Of a stretch of DNA of 64,000 bases, positions 43,880-59,723 are shown in pieces (the first letter of the stretch is position 1; each line of letters starts with the position of its first letter). The position numbers and the translations under genes are program-made. The notes below the pieces were generated by a model. The model did not search any database. It was given only the letters and a program-made list of their open reading frames with translations, and was not told the origin of the DNA. Location: NCBI RefSeq assembly GCF_014696435.1, contig NZ_JACJQG010000047.1, positions 1-64,000 of the forward strand, written 5' to 3'. Origin of the DNA: Calothrix anomala FACHB-343 (GTDB lineage: Bacteria; Cyanobacteriota; Cyanobacteriia; Cyanobacteriales; Nostocaceae).

Positions 43880-43892
43880 GGTTCCTTCCACT

Positions 43893-44004
43893 GCCGACGG
43901 AGTTAGCTGACGGGCTAAGACTGGAAGGTGTCTCTCATAAAGATTAGCCCCAAACATTGGTTCCTCCGTTTCAAATTCAGATTTTACCGAATTTGAATTA
44001 GGCT
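43893..44004 (-). ncRNA. ydaO/yuaA-type (c-di-AMP) riboswitch
   Basis: On the minus strand the conserved elements of the ydaO class appear in order: a closing strand AGCCTAATTC, a variable hairpin (CAAATTC/GAATTTG), CGGAGGAACCA, TTGGGGCTAATC, and AGCCCGTCAGCTAACTCCG followed by CGGC that can pair with the 5' GCC. This motif binds c-di-AMP and usually turns genes off. It lies 27 bases downstream of the transporter ATPase stop and 246 bases upstream of the stress protein, and is followed by a terminator. Identification is by motif reading only, but the match is detailed. Confidence 0.88.
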
Positions 44005-47296: not shown

Positions 47297-47400
47297 TTAC
47301 AACCTCAACAGATATCAGCACGGGTACAATAATCCGAGCAGTACCAGCCTTGGACACTGATGAGATTACAAAAATGTTTTCTCTTCAGTCTCCTCTCAAT

Positions 47401-47551
47401 GCCTACGAAGTTAGCTGACGGGCTAGGGCTGAGAGATGCCCCTCTTTTACAGGATGATTTCTCAAGAATGAGTCTCGATCCCGCAAGAGATACGCCCCAA
47501 AATTTGGTTCCTCCGTTCTAGCGTTACCTACTGAAAGCCGCTAGATTAGGC
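47401..47551 (-). ncRNA. ydaO/yuaA-type (c-di-AMP) riboswitch of the ABC operon
   Basis: On the minus strand: closing strand GCCTAATC, a hairpin (CTAGCG/CGCTAG), CGGAGGAACCA, TTTGGGGCG, a long variable arm, and AGCCCGTCAGCTAACTTCG with TAGGC that pairs with the 5' GCCTA. This matches the ydaO class closely and is a clear sister of the element at 43893-44004. The 104 bases to the permease start hold no strong terminator, so control may be at translation or by another structure. The rest of 47552-47905 shows no gene. Confidence 0.88.
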
Positions 47552-47974
47552 TGACTTACTCTAATTGGGCATAATATAACATGCTTTCTCCGTAAAAATA
47601 TCTCTCTCAAGATAAAAGTTGTTGATTTAACTACTCGAAGTCCATAAATATTCTCGGTGTTGAGTAATTGTTAAGTTTTATATACTGAATTAGCAACCGC
47701 ACCAGCAAGACGCTCGTAGGCAGAATTATCCAGCAGCAAAATATTTGAGTATTGGCTATTGTCTCAAGCTCAAGGGTAAATATTATACATTACCCGATGA
47801 TTTGCCGAGCAAGCTATTAAGCAACCACAGCATTTATCAAGATAAAAGCCTCATAATAATATCTATCTTGAGGTAGTGGTCAGTTTTGCTAAGTTTATCC
47901 ATTAAATGCTGCTATTGCTAAACTATTTTCATAGAGAATTTTCGTCATCTATTCTATTTAGAAAATTTAAAATA

Positions 47975-54705: not shown

Positions 54706-54815
54706 CTAAAAAATCATATTTCTCATGTCGTTAGATATAAACAGTATTTACGCAAAAAAAGCAGTAGTTATTGAATACCACTGCTGTTAATTGTACAAAA
54801 AATCTCCGAGAATAT
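54706..54815. repeat. Direct duplication, copy 2 (reductase end and terminator)
   Basis: It repeats the block at 54498-54594 with about 20 extra bases (GATATAAACAGTATTTACGC). It ends at the stop codon of the ribonucleotide reductase. Confidence 0.75.
54753..54786 (-). terminator. Terminator of the ribonucleotide reductase gene
   Basis: Minus strand: AGCAGTGGTATTCAATAACTACTGCTTTTTTT, with an 8-9 bp stem and seven T, 29 bases after the stop. Confidence 0.8.
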
Positions 54816-57800
54816 TAGTTGCTAGTTATGTCACCTGATGGTTGCTGTTCGGGAAACATACATTTATCAGAGTCGCAACCAGAAGGGCCAGCTTCGGCTA
54901 ATTCACCTAAATCATAGCGACTGAGAACTGCACAGAAATCATCTGTAATTCTTCGTGCTTTGACTTCTTGAGTTAATCGCTCGTAGGTGACTTTATCTAT
55001 TGGTTCAAAGGGTAAACGTGGGAATGATTGCAAATCATCAAACCGAGCGAGAAGCGCTGCGGAAATATATCCTTCATCATTCTGAATTGCTTCGTAAATA
55101 CGCTGTCCTAAAATCTCGACTTCATCAGAACGTAGCTCTAAAGTTGCAGAAGTATTGTGAGTGACATAATGCTTCTGAACTTGGAGAACAAAGTCTAATT
55201 GAGCTAAAACAGAGAACTTAGAAACATCAATTTGATCGGCTCCTGGTAAGTCAGCCCAAGGTACAGCTACAGGGATTTCTACTAACCATTCGCTCACACG
55301 AGGATCGAAAGGATCGTTAAGTAAATGACCATTTTCATCTTTATCAGATTGAGAAGGAATAACATTGTAACCATAGTCAATACAAGCTAAGGCTACGGGG
55401 TCATTTTTGCGGAAAGTGATCCGGCGAATAAATCTTTGGGCTTTGGGGGGATGCCAACCGGAACTAGCACCAGTTAATAGTGCTTTAGTACCGCTAGGCT
55501 GGACAGTTGTACAGCGATTAGGGCGTTTAAGATTATGGCGATCGCAATAATTCCAAACTACCCGATGTACAATATCTCTCCAGTAACTCAAATATTTCTC
55601 TTCTTGGCGCTTAAATGCTAATCCTTGTTCCGTAGCCGGTCTTCCCGCTTCCCACCACCGTAACCAATCAACACCAAAAGCATGAACAAAGAAATCAAAT
55701 AAACCAGTGAAAGAAACCCCAACAATTGGGTCTAATTCCCGGCTTTTTTGATAGCGAGGTTCGAGGAATTTATGATTTAAAAGTGAGGCTACAGAAAGCG
55801 CCCCAGCAGTGAAAGCTTCCTCTTGTTCTTTGTAATTATTTGGATCAAGTTGATTTAGGTGAATTTCTGACAAATTACAGTGAAAGTTACTACCAATAAT
55901 TTCACCGCAAGGATTTAATCCGAACCTAGCTAAACGATGTTCTATCTCCTCAATATCCAGATGTGGATACTGTTCTTGCAACCAATCTTTTGCTTTTCCT
56001 TGTTCGTAAGCCTTCAAGAAATCAACTTTTAATGCCGATGTTGTTAGCAAATCAATGTTAGATCTAGCGATCGCTTCACCTGCCCATTGAATTGCGCCTT
56101 CGCCACTATAATATTGTTTGCGTACAGCTTCAATAGATTCTTCTAATGTTGGTTTGCGATGGAATACTCTGGTATGGTTCGCCATCCGCAGAGCATCACG
56201 CTCTGGATCAATTCGCCAGTTACCTTCTGCATCTTGCTGCCATAAATTATCTTTGGCTGTAGCGCCTAATTGATCGTCAGATCTGAATTGGCGCATACCC
56301 GCACTATTATGCGTCAAATAGCCATCGCAGTAAAAACAATGGGCTTCTTCTACTTCAATGTCGTAAGTTTGGACATAATCGTAGCTACCCAAACCTTTGA
56401 CTGTGATGGGAATATCCAGTGAGATATCAGCCTCAGCGATGTAGCGTTCATAGTTAGCATCCACACTACGAGAACCTTGGAATCCCATTTCGCGCATTTC
56501 GCTATAGGTGTAAGCTTCTCGCATGATTGCGCCAGGTACGGTAAAACCATACATCTTTAATCCTTGACGCAGTTGTCCCTTCAAGGAATGAGGCGCAATC
56601 AGGGCGTTATAACGCTCTTTGAGTGCTGGAATTGTCAAGTTATATTTAACTTGCCATCTTTGCTCTTGGGGATGGGTAATAGCAATTCTGCCAGCGATAC
56701 CTAAACTAGATAAAACTGAGCCGACTTGTCTAATAAACGATCTATAGACTGAAGTGACTAAATGAGGGGGTCGGTTGTTAACTGCACCGTCACTATCCAT
56801 TAATCCAGCTAGGTAAGCAGCTCGAATATCTATTGAACCCTGCAAAATAAAACTAGGAACTTCTAGGGGAACATTAGGCTGTTTAATATAGCGATGGAAG
56901 TACTCAGCCAAGCGCATAGACGAACAGATTGACTTAGCTGTGTTTTCACCTTTGGTAACGCTATGAGTAGCTGTCAATCCAAATAATGCTAAAGCAGCAT
57001 CAATCTTAGCTTGGATTTTTGCCGTTAGTTCGGTATCTAAGCTGTTCATTGCCCATTCAACACGGCCATAGGGCTTACCATATTTATTGCGACCGAGCGC
57101 AACATAGCCATCACCGTGAGTAAACCCGATTAACCAAGCCACTTCGGGCGTTAAATCGGGAATAATCAATGGCTTAACGGTTCGGCTTTGAGCAGGTCTA
57201 GATTCTGTAAAATCAGCAGGGAGATGGGTAACTGTTCCAGGGAGTACTTGTGTATTGTGTTGAAGGCGATCGCCTGACGCTAAATTAGCAACTGACTTCC
57301 AAGCAATTCCTCCTTGAGCATCTGCTAAAACTGCTTGTTTATGATTTAAAGTTGCTCTGGGATAGGTAGCATTAGTTTCAATTTCGTAGACATCCTGAAA
57401 TCCTTGGTCGAATTTATCAACAACTCGCCGAAATCCCAGGGGAGTCTGTACTAAGTCACCCACTTGCACATCGCGAATGGGAACAAGACCTTTAGAAGTA
57501 TGAACTAGAGCGTCTTCAGGTAGACAGCGCCGAATGTTGCCCGCAACAATGGTAACAGCAGCTTGGTCAATTAATAGACAGCATTCAACAGAGTTTAATT
57601 GTCTTCCTAAAGCTTTATTCAGGATAGATGCGCAATTTTGGTAAAGTATGGGCAATTTAACCGGATTAGCCACCCCACCAAAGCCATTGAGAGTTTCTCC
57701 AGCTTGACGCACATCACTAATATCAACAAATACTTGAACTTCTCCGTTAAATCTTTCATCTGTAGAAAGTTCTAATAAGGTTTGATAAGATTCAACCCAA

Positions 57801-58396
57801 CCTTCACGGCTATCGCCGACATAGATAGTAACTCGATCGCCCTCTATAGAAATTTCCGTATACTCGCGACGCTGTGGTTTGGGAGTAGCACCAATTTCGC
57901 CCTGTACGGTGACATGAAGGCGATTGCGGATTGGCGGTAGTTGGTTAATATATCTAGGTTCGATGATGGCTCCGGTACCACAGCCCATCATTGCTAAATC
58001 CATCATCAACCCAAAGGCTTTCCAGTCTTGTAGGTTGGTAGAGGTGCAATTGTAAGCCCCAGAAAAGTTTTTTGGTTTGGCTATCCAATCGGTACCGCCA
58101 ACCCATAACCAGCGACCACTGGGTAGGGCTTTCATATTACGCTGCATCTTGTCTAAAATGGCAGCTTCTTCTTGGCTGAGTTTCCCCAATTCTACTAAGC
58201 CTTTAAGGGTGCGATCGCAAACTTCATCCCAAGTTTCTCTTAAACCCGCCGGACTGCGGCGGCTATAGGTTCTGAAAAACACAGGATTAGCTGCGGGGGC
58301 AGTTTCTGGAAACTTTGCACTCTGGCGTTTTCTTTCAAGCTCTCGAACCATAAATCCAGTCTTGTTGCGTGCTAACAGATTAAGACTATAGACCAA
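54815..58396 (-). CDS. nrdJ: B12-dependent ribonucleoside-triphosphate reductase containing an intein
   Basis: The 1193-residue precursor is a class II (adenosylcobalamin-dependent) ribonucleotide reductase, cyanobacterial RTPR type, that makes deoxynucleotides. The host parts (about 786 residues after splicing) include NCTSTNLQDWKAFGLMMDL with a catalytic Cys, LNPCGEIIGSNFHCNLSE (the radical-site Cys and Glu), PSGTKALLTGASSGWHPP and the C-terminal thiol pair CDSDKCMFPEQ. A 407-residue intein interrupts it at residues 291-697, between NIRR and SAGMRQF. The start MVYSLNLLARNKTG shares its DNA with an upstream duplicated copy. The gene is divergent from the PNPO-type gene. No other reductase genes lie near. 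Confidence 0.93.
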   Translation of the reverse strand: MVYSLNLLARNKTGFMVRELERKRQSAKFPETAPAANPVFFRTYSRRSPAGLRETWDEVCDRTLKGLVELGKLSQEEAAILDKMQRNMKALPSGRWLWVGGTDWIAKPKNFSGAYNCTSTNLQDWKAFGLMMDLAMMGCGTGAIIEPRYINQLPPIRNRLHVTVQGEIGATPKPQRREYTEISIEGDRVTIYVGDSREGWVESYQTLLELSTDERFNGEVQVFVDISDVRQAGETLNGFGGVANPVKLPILYQNCASILNKALGRQLNSVECCLLIDQAAVTIVAGNIRRCLPEDALVHTSKGLVPIRDVQVGDLVQTPLGFRRVVDKFDQGFQDVYEIETNATYPRATLNHKQAVLADAQGGIAWKSVANLASGDRLQHNTQVLPGTVTHLPADFTESRPAQSRTVKPLIIPDLTPEVAWLIGFTHGDGYVALGRNKYGKPYGRVEWAMNSLDTELTAKIQAKIDAALALFGLTATHSVTKGENTAKSICSSMRLAEYFHRYIKQPNVPLEVPSFILQGSIDIRAAYLAGLMDSDGAVNNRPPHLVTSVYRSFIRQVGSVLSSLGIAGRIAITHPQEQRWQVKYNLTIPALKERYNALIAPHSLKGQLRQGLKMYGFTVPGAIMREAYTYSEMREMGFQGSRSVDANYERYIAEADISLDIPITVKGLGSYDYVQTYDIEVEEAHCFYCDGYLTHNSAGMRQFRSDDQLGATAKDNLWQQDAEGNWRIDPERDALRMANHTRVFHRKPTLEESIEAVRKQYYSGEGAIQWAGEAIARSNIDLLTTSALKVDFLKAYEQGKAKDWLQEQYPHLDIEEIEHRLARFGLNPCGEIIGSNFHCNLSEIHLNQLDPNNYKEQEEAFTAGALSVASLLNHKFLEPRYQKSRELDPIVGVSFTGLFDFFVHAFGVDWLRWWEAGRPATEQGLAFKRQEEKYLSYWRDIVHRVVWNYCDRHNLKRPNRCTTVQPSGTKALLTGASSGWHPPKAQRFIRRITFRKNDPVALACIDYGYNVIPSQSDKDENGHLLNDPFDPRVSEWLVEIPVAVPWADLPGADQIDVSKFSVLAQLDFVLQVQKHYVTHNTSATLELRSDEVEILGQRIYEAIQNDEGYISAALLARFDDLQSFPRLPFEPIDKVTYERLTQEVKARRITDDFCAVLSRYDLGELAEAGPSGCDSDKCMFPEQQPSGDITSN
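56306..57526 (-). mobile_element. Intein with LAGLIDADG homing endonuclease, inside nrdJ
   Basis: The inserted 407 codons start with Cys (CLPEDALVHTSKGLVPIRDV, block A) and end with His-Asn (YDIEVEEAHCFYCDGYLTHN, blocks F and G) before the extein Ser. Block B is RATLNHKQAVL with its His. The endonuclease motifs are IGFTHGDGYV and LAGLMDSDGAV, both with the acidic residue, so the homing enzyme may be active. All residues needed for protein splicing are present. Inteins at this reductase site are known in several cyanobacteria. Confidence 0.92.
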
Positions 58397-58530
58397 GTAA
58401 ATTTAGGATGAAAGATTGCCAAAAATGACAACTTACCCTTACTTAACAAGAGTACAAAGTGCAACATCCGTCGATAATGTATAATATTGTCTTTCTTGCC
58501 ACAAAATGTCTCTTGCTCCCTGGCGAAGTG
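58291..58530. repeat. 240-bp direct duplication, copy at nrdJ
   Basis: Identical, apart from a few changes, to 58921-59160 at a constant offset of 630 bases. It covers the first 36 codons of nrdJ, the shared promoter region and the first eight codons of the PNPO-type gene. Confidence 0.92.
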
Positions 58531-58547
58531 TTCATCCAGAGTGGTAA
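58506..58547 (+). pseudogene. Orphan start of the PNPO-type gene
   Basis: ATG at 58506 opens the same MSLAPWRS start as the gene at 59136, but the duplication ends there and the frame stops after VHPEW. It is a remnant created by the duplication. Confidence 0.7.
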
Positions 58548-58633
58548 TGAAAAAAATAGCGGTTTGCGAGTAAGTGCATTACACCGCTATATGGCTTGAT
58601 AAAAGACACACAGGATTAAATTTAGCGATTATC

Positions 58634-59026
58634 CTACTTTCTAAGTTCGGGACGTAGTTCTTTGAGATTTTGTCTCAGATGCTCCAGTTTTTGACTGGAT
58701 TCTTTTGTAATTTGAGTACAAAATTTTGTTGAAATTAACCCTATTGCAGTTGTGACGCTTCCCTCGCTTGCTCTACCAGAAATTAGAAGAAATGCGCCAA
58801 TTAAACTCATACCAACGGAAGCATAAATTGCTACCAAACTGAGGTTAAATGTTTGTCGTGCTTGGCGTAGATGTTCTTTTGACACATCTAATACTATTTT
58901 CAAGTATGGATCGTCATTAACTGCGGGGGCAGTTTCTGGAAACTTTGCACTCTGGCGTTTTCTTTCAAGCTCTTGAACCATAAATCCAGTCTTGTTGCGT
59001 GCTAACAGATTAAGACTATAGACCAA
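58634..59026 (-). CDS. Chimeric two-helix membrane protein (nrdJ start fused to CTATMD-like domain)
   Basis: A 130-residue protein. Its first 36 residues (MVYSLNLLARNKTGFMVQEL and on to FPETAPAVN) copy the start of nrdJ with one or two changes. The rest (DDPYLKIVLDVSKEHLRQARQTFNLSLVAIYASVGMSLIGAFLLISG, then a second hydrophobic segment and a coiled tail) resembles the two-helix membrane domain found with TRADD-N in cyanobacterial immunity proteins. The match is by memory of that family. The gene uses the duplicated nrdJ promoter and start. The domain boundary coincides with the repeat boundary (58921), which supports fusion by recombination. Function is unknown. Confidence 0.75.
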   Translation of the reverse strand: MVYSLNLLARNKTGFMVQELERKRQSAKFPETAPAVNDDPYLKIVLDVSKEHLRQARQTFNLSLVAIYASVGMSLIGAFLLISGRASEGSVTTAIGLISTKFCTQITKESSQKLEHLRQNLKELRPELRK

Positions 59027-59160
59027 GTAAATTTAGGATGAAAGATTGCCAAAAATGACAACTTTCCCTTACTTAACAAGAGTACAAAATGCAACATCCG
59101 TCGATAATGTATAATATTGTCTTTCTTGCCACAAAATGTCTCTTGCTCCCTGGCGAAGTG
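58921..59160. repeat. 240-bp direct duplication, copy at the PNPO-type gene
   Basis: Second copy of 58291-58530. Both copies carry the same TATAAT (59110-59115; 58480-58485) ahead of the MSLAPWRS start, and the CTTGTTAAGTAAGGG text that precedes nrdJ. Confidence 0.92.
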
Positions 59161-59723
59161 CGATCGCTCATGCTCTCCATCAAAATCGCAGTCTGGCTTA
59201 TGCCCGTTACCTGCAACTAGCAACAGTAAGGGCAAATGGTATACCTGCCAATCGAACTATAGTTTTTCGTGGCTTTTTAACAGATACCAACCAGCTAAAA
59301 TTTATTACTGATTCCCGCAGTGAAAAAGCTGAACAGATACAGCAACAACCTTGGGCAGAAGTCTGCTGGTACTTCCCCAATTCCAGAGAGCAATTTAGGA
59401 TTACTGGTAGCTTAACCTTAGTCGCAAGCGATAATTCTCAGCCAGAATTAGCATCAGCACGTATTTCTACCTGGCGAGAATTAAGCGATGCAGCACGGAT
59501 ACAATTTGCTTGGCCTCATCCCAGTAAAGCCAGACATAAAGATGAACAAGCTGCTTTTTCTCCTCCCCCACCAGATCCCAGTCAGCCATTACCCAATTTT
59601 TGCTTACTCCTACTAGACCCTACACAAGTAGATCATTTAAAGTTACGTGGTGAACCTCAAAATCGCTGGTTGTACCACCGCAACGAGCATCAGGAATGGT
59701 CTATTGAAGAAATTAATCCTTAA
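59136..59723 (+). CDS. Pyridoxamine 5'-phosphate oxidase-family flavoprotein
   Basis: A 195-residue FMN-binding split-barrel protein of the Npun_F5749/PNPO-related type. Seen: APWRSAIAHALHQNRSLAYARYLQLATVRANGIPANRTIVFRGF and the FMN-region KFITDSRSEKAEQIQQQPWAEVCWYFP, then EQFRITGSLTLV. Typical PNPO proteins oxidise pyridoxamine phosphate, but this subgroup is probably a relative with another or unknown substrate. It is divergent from the chimeric gene. A TATAAT 20 bases ahead of ATG suggests a short leader. Confidence 0.88.
   Translation: MSLAPWRSAIAHALHQNRSLAYARYLQLATVRANGIPANRTIVFRGFLTDTNQLKFITDSRSEKAEQIQQQPWAEVCWYFPNSREQFRITGSLTLVASDNSQPELASARISTWRELSDAARIQFAWPHPSKARHKDEQAAFSPPPPDPSQPLPNFCLLLLDPTQVDHLKLRGEPQNRWLYHRNEHQEWSIEEINP

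Follow-up and report, generated by a model that had tools for sequence, protein, structure and literature searches.

An nrdJ promoter and start codon copied in front of an orphan CyanoTRADDas_TM gene in Calothrix anomala, and related arrangements across its family

The gene nrdJ, encoding an adenosylcobalamin (AdoCbl)-dependent ribonucleoside-triphosphate reductase, lies on a 64,000-nucleotide stretch of DNA from Calothrix anomala FACHB-343 (contig NZ_JACJQG010000047.1, positions 1 to 64,000; hereafter the window). Between it and its divergent neighbour, a PNPO-type gene, a second copy of the nrdJ 5′ region is found, joined in frame to a small membrane-protein gene. How did this gene come to use the start of an essential gene, is the event recent or old, and has it happened elsewhere? 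The two direct copies (A1 and A2, Table 1) are 245 nt long at an offset of 630 nt and identical at 241 of 245 positions (98%), the differences being located at 58290, 58344, 58435 and 58459. An earlier, sequence-only reading had described near-identical 240-bp copies at this offset, and these are now extended to 245 nt, with three of the four mismatches inside the original 240 nt. It was also correct that each copy comprises the nrdJ start and shared promoter (minus strand) together with the first codons of the PNPO-type gene (25 nt), that an orphan 13-codon PNPO start remains at 58506 (reading MSLAPWRSVHPEW and then a stop), and that the segment between the copies, here 385 nt and termed the cargo, encodes a membrane domain fused in frame to the NrdJ start. 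The inner copy remains with nrdJ itself, whose frame is open and contains an intein-like insert. An assembly artefact was rejected, as the arrangement is also present in independent assemblies and in chromosome-size contigs (genomes G001, G012 and G048). An RNA element in the repeat was likewise rejected, the only match being sub-threshold, at 59198–59243.

The outer NrdJ start runs into the family PF20712 (CyanoTRADDas_TM) within an open reading frame (ORF) extending from 58634 to 59026 on the minus strand. The match has E=4.1e-14 and 52.9 bits against a gathering threshold of 24.3, and covers profile positions 1–67 of 68, which confirms the TRADD-N-associated identity proposed for the domain. 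The fusion junction falls where a relative in G012 has its own start (MNDKDPY versus V-NDDPY). The PADLOC search gave no match for the chimera at E≤0.1 and the NCBIfam search only matches far below cut-off. Neither the chimeric protein nor a family nrdJ 5′ region had a phage match, and one exact pattern had no match among viral contigs.

The capture had been described as comprising the first 36 nrdJ codons, counted from a TTG at 58394–58396. This codon lies 3 nt upstream of a TATAGT box. Of 146 family loci, 143 have this box at a distance of 21–75 nt before the nrdJ start, and it is also seen in an alignment of 30 chosen rows. A consensus scan found no complete sigma-70 site, and the assignment of the box as a −10 element therefore rests on its conservation. 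If it is the −10 element, the TTG would precede the transcription start. Moreover, an in-frame stop occurs no more than 45 nt upstream of the conserved nrdJ ATG in 122 of the 146 loci; the nine genomes of the window's genus are all among the 24 loci without one, and in this survey a non-ATG codon served as the start for G049. On these two grounds the chimera probably begins at ATG 58981, and its NrdJ-derived part has 21 codons rather than 36.

Elsewhere CyanoTRADDas_TM is a short separate gene. The neighbours of seven such genes were checked (L002 and L003 in the same genome, L175, three on plasmids and one in the G012 array). Six of them have an AAA/STAND/NACHT-type or pentapeptide gene as divergent neighbour, the seventh being the G012 array, and TRADD-like_N is above cut-off in one neighbour. 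The immediate neighbours of the chimera are nrdJ and the PNPO-type gene, with no adjacent TRADD-N, STAND or NACHT sensor gene, so that the chimera looks like the orphan membrane part of a conflict system whose partner gene is absent. What it has in common with the bacterial TRADD-N conflict systems, as far as these are covered by the parts of PMC8195603 and PMC7159879 used here, is the PF20712 domain itself; it differs in lacking the AAA/STAND/NACHT or pentapeptide partner and in carrying an NrdJ start. The connection of this predicted 2-helix domain with TRADD-N comes from the Pfam name and the neighbour survey, since those parts of the two papers do not mention it. In PMC7159879 the 2-helix SLATT domain is predicted to be a pore-forming effector, and by analogy the chimeric protein probably acts in an anti-invader system, as a membrane effector or modulator.

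The sequence-only reading regarded the chimera as a fresh gene birth, which is not borne out. The same chimera is present in two further species-level genomes, in Tolypothrix sp. FACHB-123 (97% over 115 amino acids, cargo DNA 97% identical to that of the window) and in Calothrix membranacea FACHB-236 (genome G005; 94% for the protein, 89% for the cargo DNA). The flanks are 97–100% like those of the window in FACHB-123 and diverged in G005 (88–89%), which thus shows the combination that the sequence-only reading had itself named as the mark of an old event. A recent one-off birth, although the window copies differ at 4 of 245 positions, is scarcely credible in view of these two genomes. Over 239 positions the two copies within a genome are 98.7% identical in the window, 96.7% in FACHB-123 and 93.7% in G005. 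The copies of G005 are 88–89% identical to those of the window and 94–96% to those of the single-copy relatives G008, G002 and G003, and so follow the resident lineage. The ratio of nonsynonymous to synonymous substitution rates (dN/dS) of the cargo between the window and G005 is 0.064 (dN 0.012, dS 0.189), a value derived from 2.5 nonsynonymous and 10.5 synonymous, thus mainly silent, differences; the cargo appears to be under purifying selection between these genomes. The synonymous share is lower in the cargo than in nrdJ codons 1–270 (Fisher p ~0.009, rounded counts).

The insert-free state, sought in close relatives, was found in four of the nine genus genomes (G002, G003, G006, G008), while the other five (window, G005, G001, G007, G004) show the order copy–cargo–copy. 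The cargo is CyanoTRADDas_TM in the window and G005, a coiled coil ending in NPYSPDGDAICNSD in G001 and G007, and a one-helix protein with PILSYGGV in G004. The closest relative of the window in one 10-kb test is G001 (94–98% in the two longest matches, other genomes mostly 79–82%), and no DNA similarity was detected between the cargos of these two. None of the three PNPO sequence groups is uniform, more than one state being found within each. The PNPO genes of G005 and G008 (L022, L025) are 97% alike but only 78–84% identical to those of genus relatives, while the adjoining nrdJ is mostly 89–95% identical, a contrast which suggests recombination at the PNPO gene. The pair in the window is a conserved example of the arrangement and not a fresh one.

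Nor is the event unique among filamentous cyanobacteria, in which small membrane and coiled-coil genes are repeatedly found behind a copied nrdJ promoter and start. The family comprises 218 genomes, of which 149 were examined, mainly by blastn of nrdJ −250..+300 against its own upstream stretch (E cut-off 1e-3 for a set of 65 genomes, 1e-5 for a set of 78). In the set of 65, the trivial self match of each locus and one 17-nt match in G128 were dropped, three loci on other contigs (L086, L109, L110) were excluded and two loci had less than 400 nt upstream. In one locus batch, genomes having a second leader match were over-represented; G162, G047, G049, G012, G015 and G196 were chosen on earlier evidence, and G196 rests on a protein match and its sequence rather than on the blastn test. 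Partial nrdJ 5′ copies were found upstream of nrdJ in 17 of the 149 genomes, from 10 genera (g1, g4, g17, g20, g31, g37, g38, g39, g50, g51): 10 in the set of 65, three in the set of 78, G162 among three added genomes (G047 and G049 being negative), and G012, G015 and G196. As a control, 238 gene starts from 400 kb of the sister genome G001 and from the window were checked for upstream repeats. Any repeat was present at 11, and one reaching −20 at four, namely nrdJ, its divergent neighbour PNPO and two weak cases (43–89 nt, 74–86%); none of the other 236 starts has a repeat of the length seen at nrdJ.

Sixteen cargo segments, two of them (FACHB-123 and Trichormus NMC-1) from the search that identified the chimera in relatives, were compared by DNA and fall into five groups and a singleton, G165. 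These groups are CyanoTRADDas_TM; a coiled coil with a DG..CN tail (G001, G007, G198, NMC-1); the PILSYGG one-helix protein (G004, G089, G162); a two-gene unit with weak PBECR similarity (G048, G068, G169, and by reading also G196 and G012); and a one-helix protein with NCGxLHVQLS (G134, G126). The two-gene unit, a PBECR-like gene with a partner of ~120 amino acids, is found in five genera with an nrdJ 5′ copy on one side and nrdJ on the other (L112, L113, L229, L328, and L307 with L173). Among nine cargo proteins searched against Pfam, four had no match at E≤1, one from G068 matched PBECR1/PBECR3 below cut-off (E=0.002–0.004), three had weak coiled-coil matches and two matched RNR_Alpha below cut-off. 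PADLOC gave weak matches for two coiled-coil cargos, and PF20712 was not detected by Pfam in the G165 chimera.

The ORF is continuous in frame from the copied NrdJ codons into the cargo in 9 of the 17 genomes, and in G134 the start alone is shared with the nrdJ copy. Among 18 distinct repeat spans, three of them from G012, the promoter (−47..−20) is kept in 17 and the ATG in 17, while the coding ends vary from −20 to +299, indicating that the shared part is the promoter with the start, and neither a leader peptide nor a fixed site. A leader peptide as the functional constant was rejected, the NrdJ part ranging from ~2 to 100 codons. The pattern favours selection for promoter and start; a uniform-placement figure of 5.5e-5 assumes independent repeats and was not used. 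The proposal that a membrane gene was placed behind a copied nrdJ promoter and start is supported at the sequence level.

The variable ends also bear on a site-specific integrative cassette that would target nrdJ and rebuild its 5′ end. Integrative elements are described in the 5′ end of dusA (IMEVchUSA3) or prfC (SXT) in the part of PMC8409611 used here, and as at nrdJ, insertion occurs at the 5′ end and the gene keeps a promoter and N-terminus. Those elements, however, use an integrase and an attachment site, while the nrdJ repeats have variable ends with no fixed attachment core and are a true copy of the gene's own 5′ region. There is, in addition, no integrase ORF in the 385 nt between the window copies, and such a cassette is very improbable.

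The nrdJ gene matches TIGR02505 (RTPR) with E=8.9e-222 and carries an insert that resembles an intein and includes a LAGLIDADG domain (PF14528 and PF05204 above cut-off, the splicing models PF14890 and TIGR01443 below it). Its relatives are interrupted differently (L020, L022, L025, L026): at a second site G001 has an in-frame insert, and a gap of ~320 nt is found in G005 and G008 and of ~1.15 kb in G002, with open frames ending early. The 5′ copies might accordingly be by-products of nrdJ instability, such inserts possibly attracting double-strand breaks, with the cargo hitchhiking and the fusions mostly incidental. Some copies are indeed eroded or end early (G012, G166, G127, G048). This account is rather unlikely, as it is at odds with the promoter being kept in 17 of the 18 spans, with the low dN/dS of the cargo and with the linkage of CyanoTRADDas_TM to nrdJ starts in four genera.

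That linkage extends beyond the nrdJ locus. In a search of 31 genomes and another search, nrdJ 5′ pieces were located off the nrdJ contig in seven genomes (G020, G025, G093, G127, G137, G149, G166). In G137 a CyanoTRADDas_TM protein (PF20712, 72 bits) continues the NrdJ start in frame, and G093 has a PF20712 ORF behind a fragment of nrdJ; the related units of G149 and G166 look broken by eye, and Pfam gave no family above cut-off, PF20712 included, for the ORFs which follow the copies in G020 and G025. In all, PF20712 either is fused to an nrdJ start or lies directly behind one in g1, g4, g32 and g37. In two g7 genomes (L109, L110) the nrdJ promoter and ~50 codons lie on another contig before a small membrane-protein-like ORF that has no Pfam family, beside a gene resembling NurA.

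A 37-kb mobilizable plasmid of Nostoc sp. UHCC 0302 encodes an nrdJ-start fusion, a 68-residue “hypothetical protein” that begins with MIRELEQKRR, is preceded by the conserved leader and continues into a hydrophobic segment; 6 kb away a second stretch corresponds to nrdJ −150..−45. The two promoter pieces on this plasmid (L336; 9487–9593 and 15828–15928) are complementary, overlapping by 8 nt of the query, and an IS630 transposase gene lies between them. They are possibly one module split by insertion.

Three partial copies precede nrdJ in G012 (probably Anabaena cylindrica PCC 7122), in the order PNPO, eroded copy, unfused CyanoTRADDas_TM gene, TPR-type gene, second copy, Rpn-like gene, third copy, two-gene unit and nrdJ. 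Towards nrdJ the copies are 79%, 75% and 89% identical to its own 5′ region, and the first unit has the appearance of a precursor in which the fusing deletion has yet to occur.

Such series of copies, seen in G165 and A. cylindrica, could also arise by local tandem duplication, in which a stretch that begins at a small neighbour gene and reaches the nrdJ start is duplicated and the original gene is later lost. Promoter capture by tandem duplication is documented for laboratory E. coli and B. subtilis (PMC11111574, in the part used here), where a silent gene gains expression by joining a copied promoter and a direct repeat is left, and the same kind of junction with a direct repeat is present at the nrdJ loci. 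An unfused relative of the PILSYGG protein lies 1.1–1.4 kb upstream of nrdJ in G047. Unlike those captures, the nrdJ case arose in nature, recurs at a single essential gene and involves varied cargo. In none of 16 loci (1.7–3 kb of left flank each) was a remnant of the cargo found on the left side of the outer copy, and duplication does not account for the versions on the plasmid and on other contigs. Tandem duplication is unlikely, though it is the strongest of the alternatives.

The explanation given slight preference is that small conflict-type genes use a borrowed nrdJ promoter and start, which doubles as homology for their spread and loss. In the window, a CyanoTRADDas_TM gene without its immune partner sits behind a second nrdJ promoter, 5′ leader and start codon. 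The copied piece would provide steady, growth-linked expression and could act as a homology arm, a chimera on incoming circular DNA entering beside nrdJ by a single crossover to give copy–cargo–copy with nrdJ intact. Recombination between the copies would cleanly remove the cargo, and gene conversion may keep the copies alike. Single-crossover entry would explain the intact nrdJ, the ready-made fusions, the variable ends, the plasmid and dispersed copies, the arrays and the sharing between species. One mobilizable plasmid bearing an nrdJ module, that of Nostoc described above, was found, with a different cargo. A more tentative extension is that the nrdJ 5′ region serves as an integrase-free docking and expression platform, where mobile chimeras enter by homology, form promoter–cargo arrays, are exchanged between species and are cleanly lost.

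Several observations weigh against this explanation. The plasmid is a single match, sharing 85% identity with the nrdJ region of G129 across 101 nt, and neither plasmid backbone nor integrase is present between the window copies. The main cargo is out of frame with the copied start in 7 of the 17 genomes (G012, G015, G048, G068, G126, G169, G196). The copy of G169 has no ATG and, at 89 nt and 76% identity, does not exceed the two weak control matches in strength; it was kept in the count because its cargo matches those of G048 and G068. The middle copy of G012 aligns only over −5..+215, its promoter not being detectable. The inner copy of FACHB-123 is 99.6% identical to that of the window and 96.7% to its own outer copy, so that concerted evolution is not clean. 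The identity of the cargo to that of G005 (89%) is close to that of nrdJ (90%), leaving room for vertical descent with losses, and the differences behind the cargo dN/dS are few. Finally, hydropathy gives a single clear membrane segment in the chimera, the 19-residue mean exceeding 1.2 only within residues 43–72.

The features of the locus are collected in Table 1. A PNPO homologue is present upstream of nrdJ, within the fetched stretch, in 69 of 160 oriented loci, some genomes being counted twice. Elsewhere in the window, two c-di-AMP riboswitches (RF00379) score above threshold on the minus strand at 47385–47562 and 43880–43992, less than 4 kb apart.

Table 1. Coordinates of the features at the nrdJ locus of the window
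Feature	Position	Strand	Remarks
nrdJ, AdoCbl-dependent ribonucleoside-triphosphate reductase	54815..58351	-	ATG 58351; earlier TTG start 58396
Inner copy A1	58286..58530	.	nrdJ -179..+65, including first 25 nt of PNPO-type gene
-10-like box TATAGT of nrdJ	58385..58390	-	conservation across family loci
Orphan 13-codon PNPO start, MSLAPWRSVHPEW and stop	58506..58547	+	
Cargo segment between the two copies	58531..58915	.	
Chimera, 115 aa from ATG (probably 21 NrdJ-derived codons, then CyanoTRADDas_TM protein)	58634..58981	-	PF20712
Outer copy A2	58916..59160	.	upstream of chimera on one side, of PNPO on the other
-10-like box TATAGT of chimera	59015..59020	-	equivalent position in A2
PNPO-type gene, divergent neighbour of nrdJ	59136..59723	+	PF12766 E=8.2e-32; also PF01243

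Title-level literature searches turned up no title on nrdJ 5′ copies in cyanobacteria. The published promoter captures that were found, as far as the sources used here describe them, are mainly laboratory selections, while nrdJ offers a natural, repeated series at one essential gene. Its empty, filled, swapped, eroded and arrayed states occur in living relatives, which allows a direct, step-by-step comparison of how small genes acquire expression and reach fixation. The case further suggests how membrane parts of conflict systems may survive as orphans once their sensors are lost. If the nrdJ 5′ region is a docking platform, every strain would have a shifting repertoire of small conflict genes linked to DNA-precursor synthesis.
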